DNA of 20,526 nt from a virus. Location of the stretch: the IMG/VR virus record IMGVR_UViG_3300023176_004803, positions 1 through 20,526 of that record. One strand, written 5' to 3'. The position numbers were made by a program, and so were the translations under genes. The notes beneath the pieces are model-generated. The model was given only the letters and a program-made list of their open reading frames with translations, was not told where the DNA came from and ran no database searches. Shown here piece by piece: positions 4,660 through 20,526 of the stretch (position 1 is the first letter of the stretch; each line of letters opens with the position of its first letter).

Positions 4660-5281
4660 TTCTCTTCCTTAAAATTAACTCGTTGACGTAGTGTTTTTTA
4701 TTTGAGATTAGATCTATGATTTGTTCTGCAACCTCATCTACTCTCATCAGGGAATCATAATTAGGTCTGCTCTCTGTCATTCTTGTTTGGATAGCACCAG
4801 GATAGACGTCTATAATTTCTACACCGGTGCCAATTGCTTCTATTTGTAAGGATTTAGAAAATCCCTTAAGGGCAAATTTAGTTGCAGAGTATATAGATTC
4901 GTTTTTAGATGGGAAAATTCCAGACAAAGAATTGATATTAATAATCAATCCTTGCCCCTGCACTTTAAAAAAATTATATGCTCTTTTGATTAGAAGAATC
5001 TGACTGGTCAGATTGGTACTAATAGTTTCTTCTATGAGTTTATCAGAAGTATCTTCCAGTGGTCCTCCACAATACACTCCTGCATTATTGATGAAAACAT
5101 CTGCACTTGCCTCATGAAGATACTCAGTAAACTTATCTAAGAATCTAACATCAGTGATGTCTCCAGTCAATCCAAAATGACCCTTCCTGTAATGAGGAAA
5201 AACCACATGTTTATGTGATGCGCTCTGATACAGTGCTTTACCTAATCCAGATCCACATCCTGTAATAACAATACTCTTCAT
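4640..5281 (-). CDS. Short-chain dehydrogenase/reductase (classical SDR)
   Basis: A 213-aa classical SDR. The cofactor motif is TGCGSGLG (7-14), the NNAG motif is at 65-68, the catalytic Ser is in NINSLSG around 118, and the catalytic Y131/K135 are in YSATK. PGAIQTRM follows in the usual place after the active site. It is slightly short for the family (about 250) but all key residues are present. It should be a soluble NAD(P)-dependent oxidoreductase. It lies between the GxLGDxL protein (ATGA overlap) and the zinc dehydrogenase, so a role in modifying a sugar or sugar-derived intermediate is inferred; the substrate is unknown. Confidence 0.88.
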   Translation of the reverse strand: MKSIVITGCGSGLGKALYQSASHKHVVFPHYRKGHFGLTGDITDVRFLDKFTEYLHEASADVFINNAGVYCGGPLEDTSDKLIEETISTNLTSQILLIKRAYNFFKVQGQGLIININSLSGIFPSKNESIYSATKFALKGFSKSLQIEAIGTGVEIIDVYPGAIQTRMTESRPNYDSLMRVDEVAEQIIDLISNKKHYVNELILRKRNESSNS

Positions 5282-6694: not shown

Positions 6695-7335
6695 AGTTTC
6701 CAGATGATTTGATATCCATCATGCAGAAGTTCAGCACCAATATCATTCATAAAATCTTCAATGAATGTTGCCTTACCACCTTGAGCAAGTGTTGCTCTGT
6801 ACTGATCAAAATTTGGTGTGTTTAAGTGATCATCAACACAGATGATAGTTCCCTTCTTAAGATTCTTCATGACAGCACACAACTCTTTGAGGTGATGCTT
6901 TTGTGAGGGGACAGGATTATTTGGTTCAAAATCATATGAATCCAGATAAAGAAAGTCAATCTTTTTCTTTGCAGGAATATTCCACAAGAATTCCACAGAA
7001 TCTGAGCAATACACAGTAGTTCTATCAGAGACCATGCTTTGTGCATGTGCCACATTGTTGGGATTGATGTCTACTGAGACGACTTCACCATCATAATAAT
7101 TGATGAAGTCATCAAAGATATATGTACTTGCACCATCATCACCAAGAGCAAGTTGACCGTGGTCTGCTCTCATGCAACCAGTTTCTACAATAAAAAAGTT
7201 CTTATCTTTCTTTTGATCTAAAAGTTCAAAGACCAGTGAAAGAGATGATGCTCTGTCCCTTACAGGGTTCATTGGACCTGCAGGTTGGAGAAGACGTGAG
7301 AAAAATTTGCTGCTGAATCTTTTACTGTAAGTCAT
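6691..7335 (-). CDS. Class I SAM-dependent methyltransferase-like protein
   Basis: A 214-aa protein with a Rossmann-type start, FFIVETGCMRADHGQL (motif I, E-x-G), then VVSVDINPNNV, in which the Asp would bind the SAM ribose. FLYLDSYDFE and IICVDDHLNTPNF follow in the positions of motifs II and III. The last is typical of small methyltransferases in sugar clusters, where the Asp-Asp/His group may hold a metal. The N-terminus, about 45 residues, is basic and unlike the core. The gene overlaps the bifunctional glycosyltransferase upstream and the FkbM-like gene downstream by four bases each. Two methyltransferase-type genes in a row suggest decoration of a glycan, but the acceptor is not visible. 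Confidence 0.68.
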   Translation of the reverse strand: MTYSKRFSSKFFSRLLQPAGPMNPVRDRASSLSLVFELLDQKKDKNFFIVETGCMRADHGQLALGDDGASTYIFDDFINYYDGEVVSVDINPNNVAHAQSMVSDRTTVYCSDSVEFLWNIPAKKKIDFLYLDSYDFEPNNPVPSQKHHLKELCAVMKNLKKGTIICVDDHLNTPNFDQYRATLAQGGKATFIEDFMNDIGAELLHDGYQIIWKL

Positions 7336-8915
7336 TTCAATTCTCTGTTCTCAATAATACGATAATCCTCTAACACATCAGCATTTCTCTCATAAAAGAT
7401 CTTGCTGTTTTTATGCTGTGCTTTATATAGCCATGGAGCAGGCTCCCCAGTTTCTTTTCTGGTCCCACCCCATGATGGATCGGATTCAAAATCAATCCAA
7501 TAGCAACCACATACCTTACCAAGTTTCTTTCTCATCCTGAACATCAGATCATGATCATCCATGTCCTGTGGTGAGAATGCTTCATCAAGATAACCCATCT
7601 CCTCAAGATCTTCTCTGTTGATCATCAGAGGACCACGATTGACTGTACCTCTTACAGCAAACACATCTCTGGGAGTATTAGTTCTATCTGCGCAATCACA
7701 AGGATCAACAATGTCACACCAACAGTTATCCATGTCTTCCTTACCAAGATGAGTTGCTGCACCCATCTTATAATTGTGTGCAGTTCTTGCAGTCACAGCA
7801 AAGACATCACCAAATGCATCAAAAGGTTTTCTCATTCTTGTGTTCCAACCTTTCTCTTTGATGACCATATCATCTTGAATGATGATTACATACTGACCTG
7901 ATGCTTCCTTGAGTCCAATGTTATTTGCCTTGGTTTCAAATACATCATCTGCATGAAGGATAGTAACCTTACTGGTAATAGTTGAATCATGGAGATAAGC
8001 ATCCACAACTGCTTCAGTATTATCAGAACAACCATCCAGAACAATAATCAATTCATAATCACCCTCAGTATTGTCTTCAATACCAGAGAGAACTTGTTCA
8101 ATTATATTCTCTTGATTATGAACTGTGAGAATCAAACTGTATGTTACTTGTTGAAATAAGAAATTGATTTTATCTCTGGTCACCATCAGGAATCTATCAA
8201 TCTCTCTGTAAGGTTGAACTGATCCTTTATCCAATCTTTCATACCAGTATTGATAATCACATTCAATAAACTGTCTAAATTCATGGTGTGCTACAGGAAG
8301 ACCTTCACGAATAGCGATGTTAGTCAGAATACTTTGATCCCACCTGTGCTCTTTGAAGGTATCAAACTCTTCACCATGTTCACTGGGAGCATCAGCATTC
8401 ACATTATACTGTAGACACCAATCCAGATACTCCTTCAGAAGTTCCTTTGATCTATCACATACCTTCCAGACCTGAAGACCTGCTTCCAGTTGATTAGAGT
8501 TCCAGTAATCCTCTTCATCACAATTCATCAAGACAAAAGTGTCTCTCTTTGTGTAATCACCATTCCTGTTATTACCAAGAAGCAAAAGACAAGGTTCATC
8601 CTCATCCAAGTTTGATTCTATAAAAGGGATGATTCCAGGAGAGAACATATCCTTCCTGTCAACATACAGAACCACATCACCTTCTTCACACTCATTCATT
8701 GCATCAAGAATGGTGAGTGGTTTCCATGCCCAAAGTCCACCAGTTGGATGATCTAATATATCTCTATGACTTTCATAGATTTTATGATTAGTCAACCATG
8801 CTCTGTTGTATGCATGGGGAGTAAACTTACTCTGAATAGAGTGTAGAATTCTTTGTTGTGATACAGATTCCTCTCCAAAGGTTTCATCTGCATAGGTAAC
8901 GAGATGCCAGTTCAT
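7332..8915 (-). CDS. Two-domain glycosyltransferase: unknown GT-like domain plus GT2
   Basis: A 527-aa protein in two parts. Residues 1 to about 250 match the stand-alone protein at 9697-10455 through shared blocks: GG.WKP, EGDVV.Y.D..D, TKRD, MNCDEE.YW, QLE.G and HR.DQSI.TN. This suggests a nucleotide-sugar-binding fold with acidic metal sites. The C-terminal part, from about 257, is a GT-A family 2 glycosyltransferase: YSLILTVHNQEN, ELIIVLDGCSDNTE, an IIIQDDM metal-binding block, and a late SPQDMDDHDLMFRM. Two active sites on one chain suggest that it adds two sugars in sequence, or that the N-domain is a carrier. No membrane segment is seen, so it is probably cytoplasmic. Donor sugars cannot be named. 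Confidence 0.82.
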   Translation of the reverse strand: MNWHLVTYADETFGEESVSQQRILHSIQSKFTPHAYNRAWLTNHKIYESHRDILDHPTGGLWAWKPLTILDAMNECEEGDVVLYVDRKDMFSPGIIPFIESNLDEDEPCLLLLGNNRNGDYTKRDTFVLMNCDEEDYWNSNQLEAGLQVWKVCDRSKELLKEYLDWCLQYNVNADAPSEHGEEFDTFKEHRWDQSILTNIAIREGLPVAHHEFRQFIECDYQYWYERLDKGSVQPYREIDRFLMVTRDKINFLFQQVTYSLILTVHNQENIIEQVLSGIEDNTEGDYELIIVLDGCSDNTEAVVDAYLHDSTITSKVTILHADDVFETKANNIGLKEASGQYVIIIQDDMVIKEKGWNTRMRKPFDAFGDVFAVTARTAHNYKMGAATHLGKEDMDNCWCDIVDPCDCADRTNTPRDVFAVRGTVNRGPLMINREDLEEMGYLDEAFSPQDMDDHDLMFRMRKKLGKVCGCYWIDFESDPSWGGTRKETGEPAPWLYKAQHKNSKIFYERNADVLEDYRIIENRELK

Positions 8916-9700
8916 GTTAGATATACTTTAGGTGACCAGTTGAATGTTTTTCTTGCTCTACTATTTTCAATATGAGTGTAGTGCATTTTTTCTGCACTTC
9001 TCAACCTGAGATTGAGAGTTCCATTGGAAGTAACTCTCTCCAAGATTTCTTTGATGGTAAGGCTCTGTGCTCCAACTACAAACGTTTGATGGGGCATTGC
9101 TGCTTCTGTCTCATAGATCTTGATAATCAAATTAGTGAGATCAGAAACATGAATCAAATCAATTCTTGAGTCAAGGTTAGCATAGAGATCAATGACTTCA
9201 TCTGTATCCAGAGCAGAAATCAATTTATCTACAAGACCATTGGTTCTTTTCTTGGAGTGGTTTCTTCCTCCCCATACATTGGAGATTCTAAGTGATACTG
9301 TGTTGCAGTCAATGGTTTTCAGAATGTTCTCCACTTGCAACTTACACTCACCATAGAGTGTCTTGGGAACAGGTGGTGTTGTTTCATCTACAGTTCTGTT
9401 ATGTCCACTCAGAAGATCTCCACCAGTTGAAGTGAAGATAATCTTTCCATTAGGATTCTTGGCAGAAAAGAAATCAAATAGTTTCTTACTGGGAATAACA
9501 TCATTGTACATGGCATTCTCAATCTCAGAGTAATCTACTCTTGTATTTGTAGACCATCCAAGATGAATAAGACATGCATTTTCATGTGATTCAAATACAT
9601 CCTCCACATCTCTACGATAAGAGATTGGTGTGATTGGATACTTACATCTTTTTATAAGTTCAGATCCAATGAACCCACTTGCTCCAGTAAGATAAATCAT
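8912..9700 (-). CDS. NAD-dependent nucleotide-sugar epimerase/dehydratase-like (extended SDR)
   Basis: A 262-aa member of the NAD-dependent epimerase/dehydratase family. It shows TGASGFIGSEL at the N-terminus, the active-site block with Thr-Ser-Thr (FTSTGG), and YGECK as the YxxxK pair, followed by SLRISNVWGG in place of the usual R-x-x-N-x-Y-G. A conserved IDLIHVSDLTNLI lies towards the C-terminus. Bacterial relatives are about 300-330 residues, so the C-terminal substrate domain is small. It acts on a nucleotide sugar, but epimerase, reductase and dehydratase cannot be separated from this sequence. It is coupled by four-base overlaps to glycosyltransferase-type genes on both sides. Confidence 0.85.
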   Translation of the reverse strand: MIYLTGASGFIGSELIKRCKYPITPISYRRDVEDVFESHENACLIHLGWSTNTRVDYSEIENAMYNDVIPSKKLFDFFSAKNPNGKIIFTSTGGDLLSGHNRTVDETTPPVPKTLYGECKLQVENILKTIDCNTVSLRISNVWGGRNHSKKRTNGLVDKLISALDTDEVIDLYANLDSRIDLIHVSDLTNLIIKIYETEAAMPHQTFVVGAQSLTIKEILERVTSNGTLNLRLRSAEKMHYTHIENSRARKTFNWSPKVYLT

Positions 9701-10455
9701 TTCAGAACTCCATTTTCATCCCAATTTTTTGATCCATTTGAATATTCTACACCATCTTTATGATAAAGTGCATTCCATTTTATGAATGCTCCAGCACCAG
9801 TGTTATCTAACCACCCATCCACTTTAGACAAATCATATTTGACTTGCAGGTTAGTTATAATACTTTGATCATGTCTATGGGAAACATAACCATCAAAGTT
9901 ATCCAATCCAGATTGATTTGGAATATCAGTAACGATCCTTTCATCTGTACAATACTTTAGGTATTCACTTAGGATTTGAACATTTCTTTCTGTTCTCTTC
10001 CATGCCATGAATCCACCTTCAAGTTGTACAGCATCCCAATACTTTTCTTCATCACAATTCATATAATAGAAGCAATCTCTCTTTGTGAAATGCTTATTCT
10101 TGTTATGAGGATGTTGCTGTATCAGATACTGATCATGTCTACTCATATGATCATAGACATTCTTTCTAAGTTTAGTGGATGGTATATCCCCACAATCCAT
10201 ATAAACCACCACATCACCCTCTTGGATAGATTCGAATGCAGTGAGAATGATGTATGGTTTCCAGATGCAATATCCACCCAACCTTTGCTTATCAAGAATC
10301 TTTTTATTCTCTATGTAAAAGTTCTTAGTAAGTAACCACTCTCTGGTATAAGGTATGACGCCATCAAAGATGTTGTTCACTCTCACATGGTGAACTAACA
10401 TCTCCTGGTTTCTTCTGAAGTTTGTGTCAGAGTAATTGATATAGATGACTTTCAT
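9697..10455 (-). CDS. Glycosyltransferase-like protein, paralogue of the N-domain of the two-domain transferase
   Basis: A 252-aa protein. It contains GGYCIWKPYII, EGDVVVYMDCGDIP (a DxxD-type acidic motif after a hydrophobic strand, as in GT-A enzymes), FTKRDCFYYMNCDEE, QLEGGFMAWKR and HRHDQSIITN. The same blocks in the same order occur in residues 1-250 of the 527-aa protein downstream. The ATG at 10453-10455 shares its first base with the upstream TAA (TAATG), which decides the start over a TTG 24 bases further out. No signal or membrane segment. Likely transfers a sugar or binds a nucleotide sugar; donor and acceptor unknown. Confidence 0.75.
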   Translation of the reverse strand: MKVIYINYSDTNFRRNQEMLVHHVRVNNIFDGVIPYTREWLLTKNFYIENKKILDKQRLGGYCIWKPYIILTAFESIQEGDVVVYMDCGDIPSTKLRKNVYDHMSRHDQYLIQQHPHNKNKHFTKRDCFYYMNCDEEKYWDAVQLEGGFMAWKRTERNVQILSEYLKYCTDERIVTDIPNQSGLDNFDGYVSHRHDQSIITNLQVKYDLSKVDGWLDNTGAGAFIKWNALYHKDGVEYSNGSKNWDENGVLK

Positions 10456-11255
10456 TATGAATAGGGAATCACTTTCCAATGCTCAGGGTACAGATCCTTA
10501 GTAGATTTGTTTGCATTGTTAGGACCAAACCATTTGTTGGGTGCAATTACAGTTCCTTTGTCTGCCAACCATGCACCCCACCATGAGAATGTAGAGTTGG
10601 CAATGATGAAGTCATTGCACTGAGTCATCAGATAAAGATCATGATAAGGACCATTACCCTCTGCAACTAAGAATCTATCTCCTTCAAAGATCTCCTGAAT
10701 GTGGCACCAATCAGGATCATCAGAGAAGATAATCACTTGTCTATCAGGAAACTCCTTCAGTGCTTCAGCATAATACTCCATGGAGAGATTGTGGTGATTT
10801 GCATTATTAATGATGTAGTCACCTCTACGAATATGAAGAGCAACTGGATTATCCAGCATACTCACCATCTCTTTACAATCTTCTACAATATCATCTTGGA
10901 ATGTGAATTCCTTTTTGACCTTATCTTTGATGTGTGAGAAATACTTTTCTGTCTGAAAGAACCCAAACAAAATAAATTCCTTCTCCTGAATATCAAAGAC
11001 ATTTGGATTGAACTCAAATGTCTTCTCTTGATACACAGCTTCAGATCTCAACAACCCAAGTTTTGGTGGATTGATCTTGAATGCATCAAACAATTCAATC
11101 CTGAGTTTGTTACCAAGACCATCCTCTACAACTTCATTGTGATTAGGAATAGTAAAAGATGTTCCAAGTTTGTCTGCAATTCCCATGAGTGCAGCATACT
11201 GGAACATCTGATTCCCAAGTTGTCCTAATTTGCCCAGATAGTTTAGTCCAATCAT
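10455..11255 (-). CDS. GT11 family alpha-1,2-fucosyltransferase-type glycosyltransferase (copy 1)
   Basis: A 266-aa GT11 protein. The opening GKLGQLGNQMFQYAA is the family's N-terminal signature. ALHIRRGDY (139-147) is the GDP-sugar-binding HxRRGDY motif. IIFSDDPDWC and IIANSTFSWWGAWL are the two later GT11 blocks. The family moves L-fucose from GDP-L-fucose to a galactose or similar acceptor. No GDP-fucose pathway genes (gmd, fcl) are in the window, but a GDP-mannose 3,5-epimerase heads this operon, so GDP-L-galactose may be the actual donor (inference). Length is close to bacterial homologues (about 290). Coupled to neighbours by overlapping stop and start codons. Confidence 0.93.
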   Translation of the reverse strand: MIGLNYLGKLGQLGNQMFQYAALMGIADKLGTSFTIPNHNEVVEDGLGNKLRIELFDAFKINPPKLGLLRSEAVYQEKTFEFNPNVFDIQEKEFILFGFFQTEKYFSHIKDKVKKEFTFQDDIVEDCKEMVSMLDNPVALHIRRGDYIINNANHHNLSMEYYAEALKEFPDRQVIIFSDDPDWCHIQEIFEGDRFLVAEGNGPYHDLYLMTQCNDFIIANSTFSWWGAWLADKGTVIAPNKWFGPNNANKSTKDLYPEHWKVIPYS

Positions 11256-12073
11256 TGATACTTCTTCAGATACTTCTGTTCTTTGTAATACTGCTTCAGC
11301 TCATCCTTATTCAAAGATTGAAGGAATTGCCAAAGAGCATTATTGTCTTGCATATGCGGATTAGTAATCCAAGAGTTTTGTCCTCTCTTATGTTCAAGAT
11401 GATAGACGAAACCTTCAATTCTGACAACCCTATATCCAAGAGTTACAAATCTGAACAACCTTTCCTTATCTTCTGGAGAGTATGACTTGAAGTTTTCATT
11501 CTCCATACCACCCTCAATCCAGGTGGACTTTCTGAAGAATTGAACATGTCCACTCTCAGCGTTGTCCATCTGATGATTGGGTTCTAAGTATTTGAAGTCA
11601 CAATCATTAGAAAGGAACTCAGAAACCATTTGATCTGTGGCATAGATTTTCTTCTGCCACATTCCTTGACCATAAGGATAGATTACATCTGCCTCATCTT
11701 CAATGATTAGTTTCTGTGCTTGAAGGTAGGTTTGTAATGGAAGAAGAACATCACAGTCATAGTTGACAACTACTTCTGTCTCACACATGGTGAGCATCTC
11801 ATTGATGTATCTCATTCTGTAGAAAGTATCATCAACAGGATCAGATTCCTCAAAGATGTGTGTCAGATTACTGATAGCATCCTCAACATACTCTGAGATC
11901 TGAGGTAGTGCTTCTTTCTGAAACACTGATTCCTTATCTACTTCCTTGATGATTACTTTAGTATCAAAGTTCTCTAAAAGAAAGCAGCAAGTTGTGATGA
12001 CATTTCTCAGTCTGTCATCAGATTCAATCCTGATAGGAACAATGAATGTTGTGTTTTTCAGATCGTACTTCAT
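11252..12073 (-). CDS. GT-A glycosyltransferase (GT2 / galactosyltransferase-like)
   Basis: A 273-aa protein with a family 2-like layout. The N-terminal strand TTFIVPIRIESDDRLRNV is followed by EVVVNYDCDVLLP, a DxD metal-binding motif. ESGHVQFFRKSTWIEGGMENENF and SPEDKERLFRFVTLGYRV resemble the C-terminal galactosyltransferase (GT7-C-like) block, in which an acceptor-side Glu-Asp pair sits in SPEDKE. The ATG at 12071-12073 lies one base after the upstream TGA. An earlier start at 12115 would add a stretch that overlaps the upstream gene and does not fit the family. It lies between two GT11 genes, so the three probably build one branched oligosaccharide. Donor unknown. Confidence 0.82.
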   Translation of the reverse strand: MKYDLKNTTFIVPIRIESDDRLRNVITTCCFLLENFDTKVIIKEVDKESVFQKEALPQISEYVEDAISNLTHIFEESDPVDDTFYRMRYINEMLTMCETEVVVNYDCDVLLPLQTYLQAQKLIIEDEADVIYPYGQGMWQKKIYATDQMVSEFLSNDCDFKYLEPNHQMDNAESGHVQFFRKSTWIEGGMENENFKSYSPEDKERLFRFVTLGYRVVRIEGFVYHLEHKRGQNSWITNPHMQDNNALWQFLQSLNKDELKQYYKEQKYLKKYQ

Positions 12074-12074
12074 A

Positions 12075-12986
12075 TCAATTAGGAATTGTAGTCCACTCCT
12101 CAGGATAAAGATCACAACAGTTGTTCACTGCTTCCAGAACAGGTCCATAGAAGTGTTCAGGAACAATCACAGGATTAGTTCTGTTCTTCTGTAACCATGC
12201 TCCCCACCAACCAAGAGTGCTGGATGAAAGAATAGCACCATTACACAGAGACATCAGACAAAGGTCAGTGTATGGAACTTTGGAGTGTCTGGTTCTACCA
12301 TCACCTTCCATACAGGAATGATCATACTCAGGAACATCTGTGTTGATCAGGAACCTTTCATTGTCAAAGAACTCTTGCTCAGAACACCACTCAGGATCAT
12401 CAGAACAGACCAGGACATGTGCATCATCATCAAAGTGCTCAAGTGCTCTCTGATAATAATCAAAGGTCATCATGCTGTAGTAATTCTCACGACCTACATT
12501 ATCACCACGTCTCACATGAAGATAAAGCAGATTATCAAATTGAGAAACAAACTCTTCACATGGTTTTAAGATCTCATCTTTGAAAGTGAGATCCTCACGA
12601 ATCTCATCTTCAATGTGCTTGAAATACTTTTCAGTTTGAAGATATCCATCAAGGTTTGAACCATCTTCAAAATTCTCAAACATCTCCTTATCAAAGTTGT
12701 AGCAACTCTCAGTTACATTCTTTGTGTCAGGATTGAGATTCTTGAGTGCATCAAAACTGAACATTGCCTGTGGAGAAACATTGGTATTCACAAAACCAAT
12801 ATTCTTTTCTGTCATGCTGGTCATCTTGAATGGATGATGCATTCCATAGTTAGCAAAGGTAGTATGACTATCTGGTGGAATGCACCAATCATAACCATGG
12901 TAAGCAGCAATACCTCTCAGTGCTGCAAACTGGAAGAGTTGATTACCAAATCTTCCATTAGTTCCAAGTCTGTCGTATCCAATCAT
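12075..12986 (-). CDS. GT11 family fucosyltransferase-type glycosyltransferase (copy 2)
   Basis: A 303-aa GT11 protein, distinct from the copy at 10455. N-terminal block TNGRFGNQLFQFAA; LYLHVRRGDN at the nucleotide-sugar site, with Asn where copy 1 has Tyr; VLVCSDDPEWCSEQEFF; and ILSSSTLGWWGAWL. It is about 37 residues longer than copy 1, including a loop around DHSCMEGDGRTRHSK that copy 1 lacks. The two proteins share the family fold but differ along their length, suggesting two acceptors or linkages rather than a recent duplication. It overlaps the upstream dehydrogenase gene by four bases. Confidence 0.92.
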   Translation of the reverse strand: MIGYDRLGTNGRFGNQLFQFAALRGIAAYHGYDWCIPPDSHTTFANYGMHHPFKMTSMTEKNIGFVNTNVSPQAMFSFDALKNLNPDTKNVTESCYNFDKEMFENFEDGSNLDGYLQTEKYFKHIEDEIREDLTFKDEILKPCEEFVSQFDNLLYLHVRRGDNVGRENYYSMMTFDYYQRALEHFDDDAHVLVCSDDPEWCSEQEFFDNERFLINTDVPEYDHSCMEGDGRTRHSKVPYTDLCLMSLCNGAILSSSTLGWWGAWLQKNRTNPVIVPEHFYGPVLEAVNNCCDLYPEEWTTIPN

Positions 12987-14152
12987 GTGTTTACAATGAA
13001 TATTGGTTCTGTGATGTTGTCCTTATTATCCACAAATTTTACTCTGTCACCAAACTCCTGAGTGAGAGAATCATATACTTGAGGTGTTACACGTCTGTCA
13101 TTCAGAATGTAAACACTGAATCCTCTCCTCAAGAGATCTTCACAGAGCCTAAACTGTTGACTCTCTGTAAGAATGTCTGTTCCTTTCTTGTATGTGATGG
13201 AGTCAAAGTAGAATGGAATACCTTTACCATTCAAACTCTCATAGTAATCACAAAGGAACTTAGCATGTTGATTGTTGATCTCATCTGTGACATAACCCAG
13301 ATTATAATCCAATCCTACACTTTTGGCAAAGTGTGCAAATGCTCTGTTATCTCTTGGAAGACAAGGACCACCATAACCAAATCCATATCCAAGATACTTC
13401 CTACCAACTCTACTGTCAGTTCCAATAGCATTCAGAACACCAGAGATCTCATCACCACATCCTGCTTGTCTAAGAGTATCACCAAGCATGTTGGCATAAC
13501 TGATCTTAGTGGTCAGGAAACAGTTGAGAGCAATCTTTGTGATCTCTGCTGCTGTAGTGGACATTCTACAGACAATTGCTCTTGTAGTTTGAATCTTCTG
13601 ATAGAGAGATGTGATGTCTTTGAGCACTGTATCATCACTATCAAATGGATCTGATCCAAGAAGAACCATGTCTGCCTTTCTCAGGTCATTGACAATAGAT
13701 CCTTGTGCAATGAACTCTGGGTTGTAGAATACCCTTACACTGCGAGGAAGTTCTTTTCTAAACTTATCACAGTCTCCAGGGTTTGTGGTGCATCCAACAA
13801 CAAAGTTCTTTACAGTGTTGCCAATGGTAGTCATCTCCTCTCTGAGATTATTGACTACATCCCATACAGCAGATACATCATAAGATCCATCATCAAGTGA
13901 TGGTGTAGCAACCAGAGTGTAAATCAAATCACACTCACGAATAACCTGACGATTGTCTGTAGTGGCATGAAAGTTCTTAGACCTCTTCAGAAGATTTTCA
14001 ACTTCTGGTTCATTGGTAACAATCTCTCTGTTGTTGAGACTATCCACATAGTCCTTTCTAATATCTGATACCAGAACATCATACCCTGCTGCTTCACACA
14101 ACAGGGCAAAACAGATACCAAGTCTGCCAGCGCCAATTACACCAATCTTCAT
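12983..14152 (-). CDS. UDP-glucose/GDP-mannose 6-dehydrogenase family protein
   Basis: A 389-aa member of the UDP-glucose/GDP-mannose dehydrogenase family. The NAD motif is GVIGAGRLG (4-12). YNPEFIAQGS is the conserved substrate loop. STTAAEITKIALN (198-210) contains K206. GFGYGGPCLPRD holds the catalytic Cys264. These enzymes oxidise C-6 of an NDP-sugar twice, using two NAD per turn, giving an NDP-uronic acid. UDP-glucose is the usual substrate in phage cassettes. GDP-mannose is a real alternative because the operon also carries a GDP-mannose 3,5-epimerase. It sits between the NAD synthase and the GT11 gene with four-base overlaps. The C-terminal nucleotide-binding domain is present but divergent (VYILNDRRVTP). 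Confidence 0.9.
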   Translation of the reverse strand: MKIGVIGAGRLGICFALLCEAAGYDVLVSDIRKDYVDSLNNREIVTNEPEVENLLKRSKNFHATTDNRQVIRECDLIYTLVATPSLDDGSYDVSAVWDVVNNLREEMTTIGNTVKNFVVGCTTNPGDCDKFRKELPRSVRVFYNPEFIAQGSIVNDLRKADMVLLGSDPFDSDDTVLKDITSLYQKIQTTRAIVCRMSTTAAEITKIALNCFLTTKISYANMLGDTLRQAGCGDEISGVLNAIGTDSRVGRKYLGYGFGYGGPCLPRDNRAFAHFAKSVGLDYNLGYVTDEINNQHAKFLCDYYESLNGKGIPFYFDSITYKKGTDILTESQQFRLCEDLLRRGFSVYILNDRRVTPQVYDSLTQEFGDRVKFVDNKDNITEPIFIVNT

Positions 14153-14889
14153 AGCTTAAATGTAGGAATAGGTTGCATTTTATGTTGGTTCATTTTATTG
14201 AACCTTTCAAGAACCTCTACAGCAGGACCAGTTCCATGCTCCATTGCTTCCTCAAGGTCAGCATAGGATGCACCAAGTTGATCCTCATCAGTTCTCTTAT
14301 CATCCCAAAGACCATCAGTTGGTTGTGCTTCGATAATATCCTGACTTACGCCCAAATACTTTCCAAGTTCCCATACTTCAGTTTTGTACAAGTCTGCGAT
14401 AGGAGCAATGTCAACTCCACCGTCACCATATTTAGTATAGAACCCCACACCATAATCTTCAACCTTGTTACCAGTTCCTGCAACAAGACCACCATTCTCA
14501 CCTGCAATCTGGTACAAGGTGACCATGCGAAGTCTGGATCTGGTGTTGGCAAGACTCAGTTCATCCTTTGCAAATCCTTGAAGGGATTTCTTGAATGATT
14601 CAAACAAAGTAGTCAGATCAAACTGAACCATAGAGACATTCTTATAATTCTCTGACAACCAAAGGAGATGGTTGGTTGAAAGAGATTTCTGTGCAGCATC
14701 CTGATGGATGGGCATCCCAAGTGCATACACAGGATACCCAGTTTCAGCACAGAGAGTTGATACTACTGCTGAGTCAATACCACCAGAAACACCAACTACA
14801 AATGCTCTTTGTCCACTTTCTTGAATATAAGTTTTCAACCAGGATACAATATTATCCTTTAGTTGACCATAATCACTGATTCTGTTCAT
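14149..14889 (-). CDS. nadE: NH3-dependent NAD synthase (NadE type, single domain)
   Basis: A 246-aa ATP-pyrophosphatase-fold protein. The PP-loop is SGGIDS (35-40). Typical NadE blocks are NTRSRLRMVTLYQIA, VAGTGNKVEDYGVGF, TKYGDGGVDIAPIADLYKTEV and PTDGLWDDKRTDEDQLG. It lacks the N-terminal glutaminase domain of long NadE proteins, so it should use ammonia. Reaction: deamido-NAD plus ATP plus ammonia gives NAD. The ATG at 14887-14889 has a GAGG site nine bases upstream and overlaps the epimerase stop by 17 bases. An earlier in-frame start would lie wholly inside that gene. Next to an NAD-consuming dehydrogenase and several NAD-binding epimerases it may supply cofactor. Amidation of a sugar carboxylate is a speculative alternative. 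Confidence 0.92.
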   Translation of the reverse strand: MNRISDYGQLKDNIVSWLKTYIQESGQRAFVVGVSGGIDSAVVSTLCAETGYPVYALGMPIHQDAAQKSLSTNHLLWLSENYKNVSMVQFDLTTLFESFKKSLQGFAKDELSLANTRSRLRMVTLYQIAGENGGLVAGTGNKVEDYGVGFYTKYGDGGVDIAPIADLYKTEVWELGKYLGVSQDIIEAQPTDGLWDDKRTDEDQLGASYADLEEAMEHGTGPAVEVLERFNKMNQHKMQPIPTFKL

Positions 14890-15928
14890 TGATTTGTTCC
14901 TCAATCCATGCATAAGTTTTGGCAATACCCTCTTCCAGGGTCTGCTCATAATCCCATCCTAACTCTTTTCTAATGATATCGTTGTTACTATTCCTACCAC
15001 GAACACCAAGAGGTGCATCCAGTTTATAAACTTTCTGAACCACTTTACCAGCAACCTTACCAGCAATTTCTACCAATTGATTGATGGTAACCATCTCTTC
15101 AGAACCAATGTTCACTGGTCCAATGAAGTTAGAGTCCATCAACCTTCGAGTTGCTTCAATGCATTCATCAATGAACAGGAAGGAACGAGTCTGTAGACCA
15201 TCTCCCCACACCTCGATGGCTCCACCCGTGTTTGGGAGGAGAGCGACCTTACGGCAGATTGCAGCTGGTGCCTTCTCTCTTCCACCGTCCCAGGTCCCCT
15301 CAGGACCAAAGATGTTGTGGTAGCGAGCAACCCTAACAGGAATGCCATAGTTGCGATGGTAGGCAAAGTAAAGACGTTCAGAGAACAGTTTTTCCCATCC
15401 ATATTCAGAATCAGGGTTAGCAGGATATGCAGATTCTTCACTGCAATCAGGATTATCAGGGTCCAACTGATTGTGCTCAGGGTACATGCAGGCAGAACCA
15501 GAGTAGAAGATCTTGGTATAGTTCTTACCCATCTTCTCATTCATCTGGTGCTGACCTTCCAGCACATTCAGATTGATAGTTGCAGAATTGTGCATAATAT
15601 CTGCATCATTCTCACCAGTGAAGACAAAACCTGCTCCACCCATATCAGCAGCAAACTGATAGATTTCATCAAAAGGATGAATATAACGATAAGGAACTGA
15701 CTTGTAAAAATTACCAGCAGTTCCTTTATATTCCAATACCCTATTCACAAAAGTGGGATCACGAAGATCCCCAAGAATGAATTCATGTGCTTCAGATTCA
15801 GAATACTCTGGACGCTTCAGGTCTACACCACGCACCCAATATCCTTCCTGACGAAGCCTTTTGACCATATGAGATCCAATAAATCCACCAGCACCAAGAA
15901 CAAGTGCCTTCTTTTGATATTGAGCCAT
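14873..15928 (-). CDS. GDP-mannose 3,5-epimerase (GME)
   Basis: A 351-aa extended SDR matching plant-type GDP-mannose 3,5-epimerase. GAGGFIGSH at the N-terminus; QFAADMGGAGF (91-101); SACMYPE with Cys147; EYGWEK with Y176/K180; RYHNIFGPEGTWDGGREKAPAA with K219; then WGDGLQTRSFLFIDEC and GVRGRNSNN. In the plant enzyme a Cys and a Lys at these places do the acid/base work. Reaction: GDP-D-mannose to GDP-L-galactose (and GDP-L-gulose), with transient oxidation by bound NAD. It starts the tightly coupled glycan cassette 29 bases after the 55-aa gene. The ATG at 15926-15928 has only a weak GAAG site. Plant proteins are about 377 residues, with an extra tail missing here. Confidence 0.93.
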   Translation of the reverse strand: MAQYQKKALVLGAGGFIGSHMVKRLRQEGYWVRGVDLKRPEYSESEAHEFILGDLRDPTFVNRVLEYKGTAGNFYKSVPYRYIHPFDEIYQFAADMGGAGFVFTGENDADIMHNSATINLNVLEGQHQMNEKMGKNYTKIFYSGSACMYPEHNQLDPDNPDCSEESAYPANPDSEYGWEKLFSERLYFAYHRNYGIPVRVARYHNIFGPEGTWDGGREKAPAAICRKVALLPNTGGAIEVWGDGLQTRSFLFIDECIEATRRLMDSNFIGPVNIGSEEMVTINQLVEIAGKVAGKVVQKVYKLDAPLGVRGRNSNNDIIRKELGWDYEQTLEEGIAKTYAWIEEQINEQNQ

Positions 15929-15957: not shown

Positions 15958-16125
15958 TCAGAATTTCATTTGCTTAGCAAGTCTCTTGATGAGATCATCA
16001 ACCTTTGCTTCCAGTGCTGCAACTCTCTCTTCAGTTACTGCAGGAACTGGTGCAGGTGCTGGTGCAGGTGCTGCCTTTACTACAGGTGCAGGTGCAGGTG
16101 CTGATACTTCCTTTTTGGTTGCCAT
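15958..16125 (-). CDS. 55-aa Ala/Pro-rich protein with C-terminal coiled-coil-like helix
   Basis: A short gene of 55 codons. Residues 9-30 are almost only Ala, Pro and Val, built on a repeated six-base GCACCT unit. Residues 31-53 (TEERVAALEAKVDDLIKRLAKQ) have hydrophobic residues spaced as in a coiled coil. It starts MATKKEV and ends QMKF. No Shine-Dalgarno-like site is obvious. It is the first gene after the terminator at 16161-16186 and may start the operon that holds the glycan genes. An extended Ala/Pro stalk followed by an oligomerising helix suggests a small structural or tether protein, but I do not recognise a family. Confidence 0.7.
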   Translation of the reverse strand: MATKKEVSAPAPAPVVKAAPAPAPAPVPAVTEERVAALEAKVDDLIKRLAKQMKF

Positions 16126-16148
16126 AGTTAAAAATTTGGAACTGGATA

Positions 16149-16155
16149 TATTTAG
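16149..16155 (-). promoter_or_regulatory. Possible T4-like late promoter (CTAAATA) before the glycan operon
   Basis: On the minus strand CTAAATA lies about 25 bases before the start codon of the 55-aa gene and directly after the T-run of the terminator. It resembles the TATAAATA -10 element of T4-like late promoters, with one difference. No -35 box is needed for that class. The position, between a terminator and a new gene row, is what makes it credible; the motif is short and AT-rich. Confidence 0.4.
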
Positions 16156-16160
16156 ATACT

Positions 16161-16186
16161 AAAAAAGGGTGGTTGCGAACCACCCC
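16161..16186 (-). terminator. Strong intrinsic terminator
   Basis: On the minus strand a GGGTGGTT stem pairs with AACCACCC around a CGC-type loop, and is followed at once by six T and then AGT. An 8-bp GC-rich stem with a T-tract is a textbook Rho-independent terminator for leftward transcription. It ends the unit that contains the three small genes and the structured region at 16187-16395. Confidence 0.9.
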
Positions 16187-16395
16187 ATTAGGTCTTTCAT
16201 GCACGCCACTTGCCCTTTAACCAGAGGCAAGAAACTGGGCGGAGAAAGAAATTCCCCATCCGCACCACTTGCTCTTGAGAGAAGCAAGAAACTCCGAGGG
16301 GTCTGTTAGACACCATCCCGACCAGGGCAGATTTTTACGTGTCTCCGTCACGGGCATAAAGGGGATTGACTCCACCAGGTTAAGTTTCAAGACAT
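16187..16395 (-). ncRNA. Candidate structured RNA with a duplicated hairpin module
   Basis: About 210 bases between the 78-aa gene and the terminator, clearly richer in G and C than the surrounding genes. Two imperfect copies of one module lie at 16263-16293 and 16205-16236. Each has the 3' flank CCAC, a 6-bp stem and the 5' flank AGTTT on the transcribed strand. The stems are CTTGCT/AGCAAG and CTTGCC/GGCAAG, so one base pair differs in both partners. Between them 16241-16257 can fold as GGGGAA/TTCTCC. Further 5' are GUCU/AGAC (16299-16314) and CGTG/CACG hairpins. It ends in the terminator at 16161-16186. Cyanophages are known to carry structured elements such as the manA and wcaG RNA motifs; whether this is one of them cannot be decided by eye. 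Confidence 0.5.
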
Positions 16396-16401
16396 TCCAG
16401 G

Positions 16402-16638
16402 TCAGTCATCATGGACATAAGCAGGGACATTATCTGGATCTAACCAGCAAGTGTAATCATGATCTTCCATAGCAGTCATCAACTGCATTTCATTATCACA
16501 AAGGTACATGTCCCTGTAGCGTCCAGTGTAAGAATCTACCTTTTGAATGCGACAGTCAGGTTTTCCATTGATTTCCAACTTACCAACCTGAATGTAGCGA
16601 TATGGAAAACGTTCCATAAGAACAGTTGGTTTTTTCAT
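16402..16638 (-). CDS. Small unknown protein (78 aa)
   Basis: A 78-aa protein, MKKPTVLMERFPYRY at the start and ending NVPAYVHDD. It is mixed in charge, with many aromatic residues (six Tyr, one Trp, one Phe), and has no signal peptide, membrane helix or zinc site. The FPYRYIQVGKLEIN and GRYRDMYLCDN stretches look like beta strands of a small folded protein. The ATG at 16636-16638 comes one base after the stop of the 43-aa gene (TGATATG). Third gene of the row driven by the promoter at 17012-17040. Function unknown. Confidence 0.75.
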   Translation of the reverse strand: MKKPTVLMERFPYRYIQVGKLEINGKPDCRIQKVDSYTGRYRDMYLCDNEMQLMTAMEDHDYTCWLDPDNVPAYVHDD

Positions 16639-17063: not shown

Positions 17064-17065
17064 AA

Positions 17066-17138
17066 TGGGGGTTGTGGGGATCGAACCCACCTCTGCCGAA
17101 TTATGAGTTCGGTGCATTCACCAGATTGCTAAACCCCC
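17066..17138 (-). tRNA. tRNA with CAU anticodon (elongator Met, or Ile-lysidine type)
   Basis: 73 nt. Acceptor GGGGGTT/AACCCCC with discriminator A; T-arm GTGGG-TTCGATC-CCCAC; anticodon loop CTCATAA on stem CCGAA/TTCGG. The lack of the three G-C pairs in the anticodon stem argues against an initiator. CAU could be Met, or Ile (AUA) if lysidine-modified. A tRNA-Ile with UAU lies directly upstream, so Met is more likely. CCA is not encoded. Confidence 0.93.
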
Positions 17139-17140
17139 AA

Positions 17141-17213
17141 TAGGAGTGCTGGGGATTGAACCCAGACTAACCCGTTATAAGCAGGTCGCTCTGACCAATT
17201 AAGCTACACTCCC
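17141..17213 (-). tRNA. trnI-UAU: tRNA-Ile (UAU)
   Basis: 73 nt. Acceptor GGGAGTG/CACTCCT (first pair G-U), discriminator A; D-arm AGCTTAATTGGTCAGAGC; anticodon loop CTTATAA on stem ACCTG/CGGGT; T-loop TTCAATC on stem CTGGG/CCCAG. Reads AUA, a codon rare in many hosts but favoured in AT-rich phage genes. Its 5' end is one base from the stop codon of the Phd-like gene. Confidence 0.95.
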
Positions 17214-17214
17214 A

Positions 17215-17385
17215 TCAACTAGCTTCGTTGTGTTCTGTGTATATTCGATATAGATCATCATCATAAGGCATCATAACTGCTGCTCTGCCTTCTTCATCTA
17301 TAAGACCAATGTGTTCTCCTTTTTCTACTCTATCAAGGAGATTATCAAAATCATTTTCCCATTCTTGAACAGTGTAGATTTCCAT
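17215..17385 (-). CDS. Phd/YefM-like small protein (orphan antitoxin-type)
   Basis: A 56-aa gene between two tRNAs, too short for most gene finders. Its layout follows the N-terminal half of Phd/YefM antitoxins: IYTVQEWENDFDNLLDRVEKGEHIGLIDEEGRAAVMMPYDD (positions 3-43) compares with the pattern of a short strand, a helix ending LLxxVxxGE, a strand, a G-R/K-x-A turn and VxxMVP. In the family this part forms the DNA-binding dimer and a C-terminal tail binds the toxin; here the tail is about 13 residues. No toxin gene lies beside it. Leader of about 30 bases after the tRNA-Pro 3' end without a clear ribosome site. The stop lies one base before tRNA-Ile. The family call is by pattern only. Confidence 0.55.
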   Translation of the reverse strand: MEIYTVQEWENDFDNLLDRVEKGEHIGLIDEEGRAAVMMPYDDDLYRIYTEHNEAS

Positions 17386-17415
17386 AGAATCTATAAAAGT
17401 TATTGTATATAGACA

Positions 17416-17489
17416 TCGGAGTGATAGGATTCGAACCTACGGCCCCTGCTTCCCAAAAGCAGTGCTCTACCAAACTGAGCTACACTCCG
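17416..17489 (-). tRNA. trnP-UGG: tRNA-Pro (UGG)
   Basis: 74 nt. Acceptor CGGAGTG/CACTCCG, discriminator A; D-arm AGCTCAGTTTGGTAGAGC; anticodon loop TTTTGGG-type with UGG on stem CTGCT/AGCAG; T-arm GTAGG-TTCGAAT-CCTAT. All canonical parts present. CCA not encoded. Confidence 0.95.
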
Positions 17490-17494
17490 AGGAG

Positions 17495-17579
17495 CGGAAA
17501 GGGTGGGATTCGAACCCACGGATGCTTTCACATCGCTGGTTTTCAAGACCAGAGCCATCAACCACTCGACCACCTTTCC
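17495..17579 (-). tRNA. trnS-UGA: tRNA-Ser (UGA)
   Basis: 85 nt with the long variable arm expected of a serine tRNA (GATG...CATC). Acceptor GGAAAGG/CCTTTCC with discriminator G; anticodon loop CTTGAAA on stem CTGGT/ACCAG; T-arm GTGGG-TTCGAAT-CCCAC. The 5' end directly follows the stop codon of the zinc-ribbon gene. Confidence 0.95.
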
Positions 17580-17831
17580 TTATTTGATTTCAAAGTCAAG
17601 TTTCCTGACTTTTCTTTTTCTTCTTTCTTCCTGATACAGCAGGTCTTCTGAAGAAAGGACACCATCTCTCTTGGTTTCCTTGTTTGATTTTACCATAACA
17701 ATCTTGGACAAGTCAAGTGCTGAAACTTTGTCACCAGTGACTGTCATCATATTAGTACACCCACAACATTTAGCCTGTGTTGGGTGACTGGTAATTTCCT
17801 TGTTGCATACTTTGCATCTGACGGTAATCAT
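17580..17831 (-). CDS. Small zinc-ribbon-type protein (83 aa)
   Basis: An 83-aa protein. The N-terminus has C-x2-C (CKVC, 6-9) and then KCCGC (21-25), enough for a four-cysteine zinc site. The C-terminal 20 residues are strongly basic (YQEERRKRKVRKLDFEIK), suggesting nucleic-acid binding. Such small zinc ribbons occur in phages, but I do not recognise a named family. The ATG at 17829-17831 has AAGGATGAAG upstream, a usable ribosome site, 12 bases after the stop of the HExxH gene. The TAA at 17580-17582 touches the first base of tRNA-Ser, so RNase P cleavage would cut exactly behind the stop codon. Confidence 0.78.
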   Translation of the reverse strand: MITVRCKVCNKEITSHPTQAKCCGCTNMMTVTGDKVSALDLSKIVMVKSNKETKRDGVLSSEDLLYQEERRKRKVRKLDFEIK

Positions 17832-17843
17832 TGTTCTTCATCC

Positions 17844-18506
17844 TTATTCCTTTAGATAATCGTTTTCAATAAGCCATTGTCTTGTCATTGGAGTGGGTTT
17901 ATAAACTTCCCACATCTTTCCTGTAGCACATGCCTCAAGTGCTTTGGCAGTCATACCTTCTGTTCTTCCTGCCCATGCTGCTTCTGCTTCCCAGGGGACT
18001 GCTGATGCTGGATAGGACTTCTCTACCATTTCTCTCCAGAACTCAGGTACATCCTCTTCTGGTTTGATGATGGCAATCATACTATTATCTATAGATCCTG
18101 CCATACAATCTTGTGCAGCGTGCCAACCTTCATGACGCATAACTGCCATGAGAGTTGAATACCTTTTTACAAGACCATCATTGAGATAAAAGTTATTACT
18201 GACTGTATGATATACACCTCTATGACCTGGTGGAAAATACTTCTCTGGTGCAATGTAAACCTTTACACCAATTTTCCCAAGTGCTTTCATCATTGAATTG
18301 AACTCACTATATAGCGGGTCCATCATGCCAGCCTTCTTGTAGTAACTGGCAATGTCCTTTGCACTTTTGATTTCTACAACACCATCAGTACATTCACGCA
18401 GAATCATGCACCCCATGGCATCCATGGAGTACCAACCTTTGGTAGGTTCTGCTAATGCTGGTGAAGCAGACAGAAGCAATGCTAATAATAGTTTTCTCAT
18501 GTCCAT
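17844..18506 (-). CDS. Secreted HExxH (zinc metallopeptidase-like) protein
   Basis: A 220-aa protein with a Sec signal peptide: MRKLLLALLLSASPALA with cleavage before EPTKG. The mature part has VMRHEGWHAAQDC, an HExxH zinc-peptidase motif at residues 125-129, and PWEAEAAWAG some 60 residues later, which could give the third zinc ligand as in gluzincin-type enzymes. Three further cysteines may form disulfides. It would act in the periplasm or outside the cell, perhaps on envelope or surface protein during entry, lysis or exclusion. The ATG at 18504-18506 lies 11 bases after the 3' end of tRNA-Val, with no ribosome site (MRK at 18500 is an alternative). The frame is open upstream only through the tRNAs. 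Peptidase activity is inferred. Confidence 0.75.
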   Translation of the reverse strand: MDMRKLLLALLLSASPALAEPTKGWYSMDAMGCMILRECTDGVVEIKSAKDIASYYKKAGMMDPLYSEFNSMMKALGKIGVKVYIAPEKYFPPGHRGVYHTVSNNFYLNDGLVKRYSTLMAVMRHEGWHAAQDCMAGSIDNSMIAIIKPEEDVPEFWREMVEKSYPASAVPWEAEAAWAGRTEGMTAKALEACATGKMWEVYKPTPMTRQWLIENDYLKE

Positions 18507-18517
18507 AAAGGTATGGA

Positions 18518-18589
18518 TGGGTGATGAGGGATTCGAACCCCCGACCCTCTCCGTGTAAAGGAGACACTCTACCGCTGAGTTAATCACCC
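18518..18589 (-). tRNA. trnV-UAC: tRNA-Val (UAC)
   Basis: 72 nt. Acceptor GGGTGAT/ATCACCC, discriminator A; D-arm ACTCAGCGGTAGAGT; anticodon loop TTTACAC on stem TCTCC/GGAGA; T-arm CGGGG-TTCGAAT-CCCTC. CCA not encoded. Confidence 0.95.
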
Positions 18590-18664
18590 TGGCTCCCCCT
18601 CCAGGATTCGAACCTGGGACCAAACGATTAACAGTCGTTCGCTCTACCGCTGAGCTAAGGAGGA
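18590..18664 (-). tRNA. trnN-GUU: tRNA-Asn (GUU), CCA encoded
   Basis: 72 nt plus an encoded CCA (18590-18592). Acceptor TCCTCCT/AGGGGGA (one G-U pair) with discriminator G; anticodon loop CTGTTAA on stem AACGA/TCGTT; T-arm CCAGG-TTCGAAT-CCTGG. Its CCA touches the first base of tRNA-Val, so the two are joined without a spacer. Confidence 0.95.
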
Positions 18665-18668
18665 ATAT

Positions 18669-18735
18669 GTGTGGATGACAGGATTTGATACCTGCATACC
18701 CTTATAAAGGTGTGTTTCCTTACATCACATCCACA
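18669..18735 (-). tRNA. Degenerate or unusual tRNA-like sequence (about 65 nt)
   Basis: A perfect 7-bp acceptor GTGGATG/CATCCAC with a 3' A encloses a T-arm GCAGG-TATCAAAT-CCTGT, whose loop has eight instead of seven bases, and a D-arm TGT-AAGGAAAC-ACA with the GG pair. The anticodon arm is irregular: ACC/GGT flank TTTATAAG, giving either a six-base loop or an eight-base loop with a mismatch, and almost no variable loop. It lies in line with the other tRNAs. It may be a decaying tRNA or one with a non-standard anticodon loop. The anticodon cannot be assigned (UAU or UAA region). Confidence 0.45.
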
Positions 18736-18739
18736 GTAT

Positions 18740-18756
18740 GGAACTGATCAAGTTCC
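18740..18756 (-). other. Short perfect hairpin between tRNA-Gly and the tRNA-like sequence
   Basis: GGAACT-5 bases-AGTTCC, a 6-bp perfect stem, four bases after the 3' end of tRNA-Gly on the minus strand. No T-run follows. Possibly a processing or 3'-end protection signal. Confidence 0.4.
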
Positions 18757-18759
18757 AAG

Positions 18760-18831
18760 AGCGGAATAGGGGATTTGAACCCCTGACATTCAGCTTGGAA
18801 GGCTGACGTTCTACCACTGAACTAATTCCGC
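18760..18831 (-). tRNA. trnG-UCC: tRNA-Gly (UCC)
   Basis: 72 nt. Acceptor GCGGAAT/ATTCCGC with discriminator T, usual for bacterial glycine tRNAs; anticodon loop CTTCCAA on stem TCAGC/GCTGA; T-arm AGGGG-TTCAAAT-CCCCT. CCA not encoded. Confidence 0.95.
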
Positions 18832-18835
18832 AAGG

Positions 18836-18908
18836 TGGAGAATAGGAGACTCGAACTCCTGACAGCCTGCTTGCAAAGCAGGTGCTCTACCAACTGAGCT
18901 AATTCCCC
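18836..18908 (-). tRNA. trnA-UGC: tRNA-Ala (UGC)
   Basis: 73 nt. Acceptor GGGGAAT/ATTCTCC (one G-U pair), discriminator A; anticodon loop TTTGCAA on stem CCTGC/GCAGG; T-arm CAGGA-TTCGAGT-type loop. The third acceptor pair is G-T, so the G3-U70 alanine identity element is present. Confidence 0.95.
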
Positions 18909-18983
18909 TGGAGCCACATGTCGGACTTGAACCGACGACCTACCGCTTACAAGGCGGTTGCTCTACCACTGAGCTAAAGTGGC
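18909..18983 (-). tRNA. trnT-UGU: tRNA-Thr (UGU), CCA encoded
   Basis: 72 nt plus an encoded CCA (18909-18911). Acceptor GCCACTT/ATGTGGC has one T-T mismatch; discriminator T; anticodon loop CTTGTAA on stem ACCGC/GCGGT; T-arm GTCGG-TTCAAGT-CCGAC. The CCA touches the 5' end of tRNA-Ala. Confidence 0.95.
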
Positions 18984-18985
18984 AA

Positions 18986-19059
18986 CGACTCAGGAGGGAC
19001 TTGAACCCCCGACCAACTGCTTAGAAGGCAGATGCTCTATCCAACTGAGCTACTGAGTC
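18986..19059 (-). tRNA. trnR-UCU: tRNA-Arg (UCU)
   Basis: 74 nt. Acceptor GACTCAG/CTGAGTC with discriminator G; anticodon loop CTTCTAA on stem TCTGC/GCAGT; T-arm CGGGG-TTCAAGT-CCCTC. First tRNA after the sigma70-like promoter; reads AGA. Confidence 0.95.
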
Positions 19060-20073: not shown

Positions 20074-20526
20074 TCAAGGCATGGGTGACTCAAAATAATC
20101 TTTACGATAGTAACGACCCAGGATGTTGCTATTGTAGTAGGCAGGGATCCCTTCTGTCAAGCTCTCTGTAAGTACATTATTTAGAAAGAGTTGACGGGTT
20201 TCCTCAAAGTTACATTTTCCTATGGTTTTGTGGAGGGAGAGGATTTCTCTAACAAAAGAGTCCCGTCCATATTTTGCAACATCCTCTTTAAGCTCTGGAC
20301 AAGATCCATAGTAGTCACGCCAGTTACTTTCAGTTGTAACTCTTCTCCTGCGCTTGTTTTCACCCACAGACTTAGGCTTTCGTTTTTGCCAGAAATACTT
20401 TCTACCGATATATTTTCTCTGGGTGACCTTACAGGTAATAAGGTAAACAAAACCGTAGTTGTCCCCAATAAGGCTCCCGTCAAACACCCTGCCACAATAG
20501 GTCCAGGGATTGGGGTAGTCAGGATA
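20074..20526 (-). CDS. GIY-YIG-like endonuclease, 5' end outside the window
   Basis: The frame is open to the right edge (first visible residues YPDYPNPWTYCG), so the internal GTG at 20487 is probably not the start. YGFVYLITCKVTQRKYIGRKYF fits the GIY-YIG core, with VYLI and YIG in place of GIY and YIG and a conserved Arg/Lys after it. SNWRDYYGSCPELKEDVAKYG follows where related phage proteins have a W-x-x-YYGS block, then FVREILSLH and a Glu (NFEETR). Stand-alone enzymes of this type move between phage genomes by cutting a DNA target, often beside tRNA or structural genes. The C-terminal half has no clear DNA-binding repeat. The stop lies about 30 bases before the lysozyme gene. Confidence 0.72.
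   Translation of the reverse strand, partial: YPDYPNPWTYCGRVFDGSLIGDNYGFVYLITCKVTQRKYIGRKYFWQKRKPKSVGENKRRRRVTTESNWRDYYGSCPELKEDVAKYGRDSFVREILSLHKTIGKCNFEETRQLFLNNVLTESLTEGIPAYYNSNILGRYYRKDYFESPMP

Follow-up and report, generated by a model that had tools for sequence, protein, structure and literature searches.

wcaG RNA as the putative 3′ end of a pseudoknot array in T4-like cyanophages

The wcaG RNA entered the literature in 2010, from marine metagenomes and T4-like cyanophages, as a candidate riboswitch without a known ligand (Weinberg et al. 2010, PMC2864571), and annotations of isolates, S-CREM1 and S-SCSM1 among them, have since included it (PMC9964418, PMC9602691). Its placement in a 5′-UTR goes back to an assumption that the 2010 work applied to any motif upstream of genes (PMC2864571). 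The same paper covers the STAXI RNA, a pseudoknot repeated two or three times with no assigned function, and the epsC/EAR RNA, a structured RNA linked to polysaccharide operons (PMC2864571). In T4-type phages, the promoter early stem-loop (PeSL) is a composite of promoter and terminator (Arbiol 2010 and Comeau 2014, as cited in PMC4503421).

Here we analysed a stretch of 20,526 nucleotides from a virus (IMG/VR record IMGVR_UViG_3300023176_004803, positions 1 to 20,526; hereafter, the window). Positions 16296–16195 on its minus strand matched the wcaG RNA (Rfam RF01761) over the complete model (1–98) in cmscan, with 92.8 bits and an E-value of 8.6e-17; the gathering score of this family is 42 bits. 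In a scan of 16130–16420 against Rfam, wcaG alone was above threshold, and the remaining matches up to an E-value of 10 were two chance snoRNAs. The sequence-only reading of this DNA had listed wcaG among the models to be searched; those listed with it, manA, PhotoRC and glnA, found nothing in the region, and STAXI, epsC, preQ1, T-box and PhotoRC-II models likewise had no match within 16130–16420. The gene context is that of wcaG, with polysaccharide or high-light genes downstream in cyanophage or marine DNA: an epimerase and sugar-nucleotide genes follow the RNA. We consider it near certain that the RNA in the window is the wcaG RNA of a T4-like cyanophage. The genes that flank it are as follows.

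16402–16638, minus strand: upstream gene of 78 aa, PHROG 481 (T4-GC_250 / gp206-like in annotated cyanophages), function unassigned (phrog_481, E 4.8e-40)
15958–16125, minus strand: first downstream ORF, 55 aa, Ala/Pro-rich and coiled-coil-like (weak phrog_35121 match)
14873–15928, minus strand: NAD-dependent nucleotide-sugar epimerase, gene 1 of the glycan operon (PF01370, E 3.8e-35; phrog_540)

The epimerase gene belongs to a long run of genes on the same strand (185–15928, minus), with sugar-nucleotide, glycosyltransferase and related genes that include an NAD synthase (14149–14949), a UDP-glucose dehydrogenase-like protein and a cytidylyltransferase. The 55-aa ORF lies past the terminator here, and similar small proteins occur before wcaG at some other loci. 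Upstream, the minus strand carries ten phage tRNA genes (17065–19059: Met, Ile, Pro, Ser, Val, Asn, Gly, Ala, Thr and Arg) and an ORF at 20074–20487 that by eye looks like a GIY-YIG-type endonuclease. In S-CREM1 (L127, 3545–3897), a manA RNA and an abiF RNA lie between tRNAs right after wcaG.

The distribution of related sequences is that of a cyanophage element. BLAST found related DNA in 88 phage records, all 88 of them cyanophages. Scanned with an exact pattern, 84,980 cellular genomes (species) gave four matches, one of them plausible; three lay in GC-rich sequence without P1/P3, and the fourth was on a short archaeal MAG contig in a phage-like context.

Within the match, the RNA is built from the following elements.

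16195–16296, minus strand: wcaG RNA as defined by RF01761, with P1, P2 and P3 (cmscan)
16268–16295, minus strand: type-A unit 1, flank GGAG (16295–16292) and P1 stem (covariation)
16288–16283 / 16273–16268, minus strand: P1 stem CTTGCT/AGCAAG (sequence, covariation)
16295–16292 / 16281–16278, minus strand: PK1, flank GGAG that can pair with the P1 loop CTCT (concordance of flank and loop classes)
16238–16267, minus strand: UGGUGCGGAU core and P2 hairpin GGGG...CTCC (P2 at 16267–16239; helix pairing in relatives)
16204–16238, minus strand: type-A unit 2, flank, P3 stem, then GUGGCG (PK3 and P3 covariation)
16231–16226 / 16214–16209, minus strand: P3 stem CTTGCC/GGCAAG (sequence, covariation)
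16238–16235 / 16224–16221, minus strand: PK3, flank CCAG pairing with the P3 loop CTGG (covariation)

P1 and P3 are the two look-alike hairpins from which the sequence-only reading had started, and they are real: both have AGTTT before and TGG after them and loops with the ends TCT...AAG, and they lie 57 nt apart. The third hairpin between them (P2), the hairpins 5′ of them, the terminator and the CTAAATA motif behind it were likewise all found in the sequence. The ends proposed for the region, 16187–16395, enclose a real feature but leave out the terminator and the upstream module's first nucleotides.

To score the structure (P1, P2, P3 and the P3 pseudoknot), we aligned 91 distinct relatives among the matches listed, from viral contigs and phage records (alignment A1). 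Pairing was found in 99.2% of cells, against 82.7% when shuffled and at most 52% when slid, and two-sided changes in 341 cells against 98 in shuffles; these values come from contig scans with at least 120 matches each, from loci that are partly related, and from shuffles that contain no phylogeny model. The covariation that had been predicted is far above both controls. P1 and P3 were each 100% paired in the 91 relatives, with two-sided changes at five of six pairs in each, so both look-alike hairpins covary beyond chance. Certain columns were invariant by design of the search pattern, mainly those of P2: its helix was 95.9% paired, in columns that the pattern had mostly fixed and that had little room to vary. 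PK3, taken as the four bases before UUUC and the P3 loop, formed 4 bp in 146 of 146 parsed loci (among the matches listed), in five compensatory forms and with zero exceptions; all 34 distinct combinations of flank and loop pair, where the shuffled maximum was 22. For PK1, the flank and loop classes were GG/CC in 62 cases, AG/CU in 25 and discordant in 3, and pairing over two to four bases was only modestly above shuffles. P1 may carry a pseudoknot similar to that of P3, weaker than it. Relative to the 98-nt Rfam model and its printed structure line, the P1 and P3 pseudoknots are new, while the 2010 figure may already show one of them.

Across P1, P3 and PK3 there were 14 G-U pairs and zero A-C pairs. 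Because of this asymmetry, the RNA of the minus strand is what selection acts on. That the hairpins arose by chance, or belong to a coding sequence, is almost certainly wrong. The minimum free energy of the window RNA did not fall below that of shuffles (z = −0.70, an uninformative value) and ORFs are called here in some phage annotations, both of which this reading would accommodate; the RF01761 match and the covariation already refute it. Conservation at codon level is also unlikely, because length differences in P1 and P2 are not multiples of three and UAA or UGA is frequent in the linkers of the upstream modules.

The repetition extends upstream of the Rfam match, where a second region of repeated modules spans 16403–16297.

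16294–16352, minus strand: type-B module 2, hairpin CGTG-ACGGAGA-CACG (16352–16338), A-rich linker, CUGGUCGGG, closing hairpin GGGATGGTGTCTAACAGACCCCTCGG (module family)
16361–16403, minus strand: type-B module 1, irregular, hairpin GAC-CTGGAAT-GTC, linker, CUGGUGGAGUCAAUCCCC (match to the module family)

In most loci, such type-B units lie between the upstream gene and wcaG. Each opens with a hairpin of 4 bp closing a loop of 7 nt; an A-rich linker, in most cases 9 or 11 nt long, leads to CUGGUSGG, and another small hairpin follows. Both copies in the window depart from this form: the linker of module 2 is irregular, with 12 nt, and the hairpin of module 1 overlaps the stop codon of the upstream gene and has a broken outer stem pair. 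Units were picked without a stem requirement, and among the matches listed there were 278 distinct ones, 248 with all four stem pairs; several of the unpaired candidates resemble matches in coding sequence. In the long-linker class, loop position 2 agrees with linker position 9 (C-G, U-A) and loop position 5 with linker position 8 (A-U, G-C, U-A); in the short-linker class, loop position 2 agrees with linker position 7 (C-G, U-A). None of these three pairs had an exception. In the alignment of type-B units (A2), 98.4% of cells were paired, and both loop–linker pairs were paired at 100%, with 25 and 33 two-sided changes. Upstream, 158 of 189 loci had at least one type-B unit and 74 of 189 had two (among the matches listed), and the modules had no Rfam match.

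The P1 position before this P2 can instead be occupied by a type-B unit or by another pseudoknot-like hairpin. At L140, L148, L151, L152 and L164, for example, other hairpin types fill the P1 slot before the same P2 core, some of them with apparent 5-bp loop–tail pseudoknots such as GUCGU/ACGAC. At five other loci (L018, L090, L092, L125 and L128), a third type-A-like hairpin lies 3′ of the core, after CCUUCCGUGUGG and before a final GUGGCGUGCAUG; tRNA-Gly often comes next there.

As covariation shows, the units appear to be compact, pseudoknot-like hairpins with UGGU and then a small hairpin behind each of them. On this structural reading wcaG would be the 3′ end of an array of exchangeable pseudoknots, and the Rfam wcaG model would correspond to its last one and a half units. 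Two functions were considered from motifs in the array: GGA recurs in type-B loops, which prompted the idea of a CsrA/RsmA-type sponge, and UGGU might pair with the ACCA ends of tRNAs. UGGU is not kept in the last unit, which has UGGC.

The 3′ side of the array carries two further elements.

16161–16186, minus strand: intrinsic terminator GGGGTGGTTCGCAACCACCC-TTTTTT (stem 16186–16166 plus T-run; terminator scan)
16149–16155, minus strand: CTAAATA, which resembles a T4-type late promoter (sequence)

Over 177 distinct loci among the matches listed, an intrinsic terminator lies shortly 3′ of P3 in 148, a tRNA in 13 and an ORF directly in 14, with 2 unclassified; the class with a terminator only took in some tRNA-flanked loci, such as L038, L077 and L133. 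A terminator together with a downstream tRNA was seen in 0 of 15 loci in one count, whose stricter terminator criterion missed many terminators. The terminator starts at a median of 22 nt past P3 (IQR 19–24 nt). In 133 of 148 loci, a −10-like box (at least 5/6) comes right behind it, including a few sites that also fit the late-type motif (e.g., L054 and L099). Such boxes were found at 77 of 90 wcaG terminators and 24 of 80 other terminators of the same loci, and exact TATAAT at 62 of 90 and 6 of 80, respectively. In a subset, the terminator loop also carries TTGACA or TTTACA at a spacing of 17 nt, and the common loop form, TTGCAT, is a poor −35. The late-like motif occurs in only a few relatives, most of which instead have TATAAT near there; in the window, TTCGCA and TATCTA (16179–16153) are poor as a sigma70 promoter. 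No cluster of sigma70-like promoters was found just upstream of the array in the relatives' loci, where matches were scattered and rare.

These positions bear on what the RNA might control. The sequence-only reading had described a structured, covarying phage RNA of repeated units ahead of a terminator and glycan genes, and this description holds. It had also proposed a tandem-aptamer riboswitch or attenuator gating the glycan genes, and this proposal fared poorly. Its other suggestion, a stable small RNA, may apply. A ligand-sensing riboswitch, possibly tandem, that controls terminator read-through or downstream translation, as put forward in 2010 (PMC2864571), is in our judgement unlikely. 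A compact pseudoknotted fold, repeated units, an adjoining terminator and the 14 of 177 loci in which the RNA is in a direct 5′-UTR position would all suit it. However, the glycan genes appear to start at their own promoter past the end of the array, which argues against a simple 5′-UTR riboswitch: a terminator-coupled switch would be bypassed in most loci, where the downstream genes could be expressed from the promoter behind the terminator. Such a switch is also expected to show alternative pairing between terminator and RNA that covaries, yet no covarying antiterminator was found among these loci, the 5′ arm of the terminator pairing no better with its own than with swapped RNA (p about 0.5) and the 3′ arms slightly worse with their own RNA than with that of other loci. 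The core further occurs before tRNAs (13 of 177) and directly before unrelated ORFs without a terminator (14 of 177), its mix-and-match units are unusual for one aptamer, and its 5′-UTR placement was, as noted above, an assumption.

An element for processive antitermination, put-like or EAR-like and serving the long glycan operon, needs no alternative pairing and fits the null antiterminator result, as well as the position of the RNA just 5′ of the terminator, the tight spacing between them and the long polysaccharide operon behind. We regard it as quite improbable: most loci have a promoter behind the terminator and so do not need read-through, loci that lack a terminator still have the array, and no other Rfam family, epsC/EAR included, matched it.

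Gene contexts, determined by tblastn against a small reference set, link the array to both sides. Among the matches listed, 81 of 105 loci have a homologue of PHROG 481 no more than 1.5 kb upstream and none has one downstream, and a sugar-nucleotide or glycan gene lies within 1.5 kb downstream in 120 of 148, which is a point in favour of the riboswitch. In annotated isolates, hli genes, tRNAs, oxygenases and a tail fibre gene are also found downstream. Linkage on both sides alone does not decide which transcript the RNA serves. The varying downstream gene content, together with exchangeable units and a terminator that overlaps a promoter, would be expected of a mobile cassette for recombination or shuffling, in which the array and the terminator–promoter are kept as DNA homology for PeSL-like module exchange. 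This we hold to be very unlikely, as compensatory changes and G-U pairs without A-C pairs indicate selection on the RNA of one strand, which DNA homology leaves unexplained.

The explanation that we favour, at about an even chance, is that the array forms the terminated, structured 3′-end RNA of an upstream phage transcript. It would be transcribed as the 3′ part of a transcript running through the PHROG 481 gene, and transcription would as a rule end at the terminator, some 22 nt beyond P3, and yield a structured RNA whose 3′ end is defined; in some relatives, the 3′ end may be set by the following tRNA instead. The glycan genes would restart from a promoter overlapping or just behind the terminator, of sigma70 type (−10 box) in most relatives and late-promoter-like in the window. 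A role of the array within the upstream transcript, or exerted from it, would be more likely than one as a leader switch for the glycan genes; the array might offer a protein several binding sites or shield the 3′ end of the RNA from decay. Counting for this explanation are the RF01761 match, the covariation of P1, P3, PK3 and the type-B units, G-U without A-C pairs, the terminator with its −10 box, the lack of an upstream promoter cluster and the linkage to the upstream gene. Counting against it are the glycan-type genes downstream, which a downstream-acting regulator would equally predict, the tight spacing of P3 and terminator, which could mean coupling, the loci in which the RNA directly precedes an ORF and would be a 5′ UTR, the want of a good sigma70 promoter behind the terminator in the window, and sequences that are not phylogenetically independent.

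A further-reaching and unlikely proposal is that wcaG is the tail of an unrecognised modular RNA, made of tandem exchangeable H-type pseudoknots with a UGGU core at the 3′ end of the upstream transcript, which during infection would bind a host or phage protein (or the 3′ ends of tRNAs) in a multivalent manner and not be a leader riboswitch.

wcaG, an orphan among riboswitch candidates since 2010, is treated in cyanophage annotation as a cis-regulator of exopolysaccharide genes. The idea of a leader switch for downstream genes is doubtful because, in most relatives, the next genes have a start signal that the terminator overlaps. A longer modular architecture and a promoter past the terminator would redirect searches for a ligand, and constructs made from the 98-nt core would leave out the greater part of the RNA. 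The array would also allow a concrete test of the way in which cyanophages keep shared genes apart from exchangeable islands of metabolic genes.

Among known systems, the preQ1-I type riboswitch, in which the loop of a small hairpin pairs with an A-rich tail 3′ of it, is similar to the type-B modules in its loop–tail pairing, whereas these have two or three such pairs only, stand in tandem and have no Rfam match. Repeated pseudoknots are common to STAXI RNA and the array, which differ in gene neighbours and by the absence of a STAXI match in Rfam. Like epsC/EAR RNA and the HK022 put RNA, a structured antitermination RNA tied to terminators, the array is a structured RNA tied to polysaccharide operons or terminators, but it has no Rfam match to them. 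With PeSLs, as far as the citing paper describes them, relatives share a terminator hairpin that overlaps an early promoter at a module boundary; the window has the intrinsic terminator stem-loop and, unlike a PeSL, the late-like CTAAATA in place of an overlapping early (sigma70) promoter. The cis-regulatory 5′-UTR label of wcaG is unsupported by promoter position in most loci. What the locus shares with wcaG is the full-length match, the order P1-P2-P3 and a cyanophage setting ahead of polysaccharide or hli genes; beyond the 98-nt Rfam model, it has the P1 and P3 pseudoknots and the type-B modules upstream.
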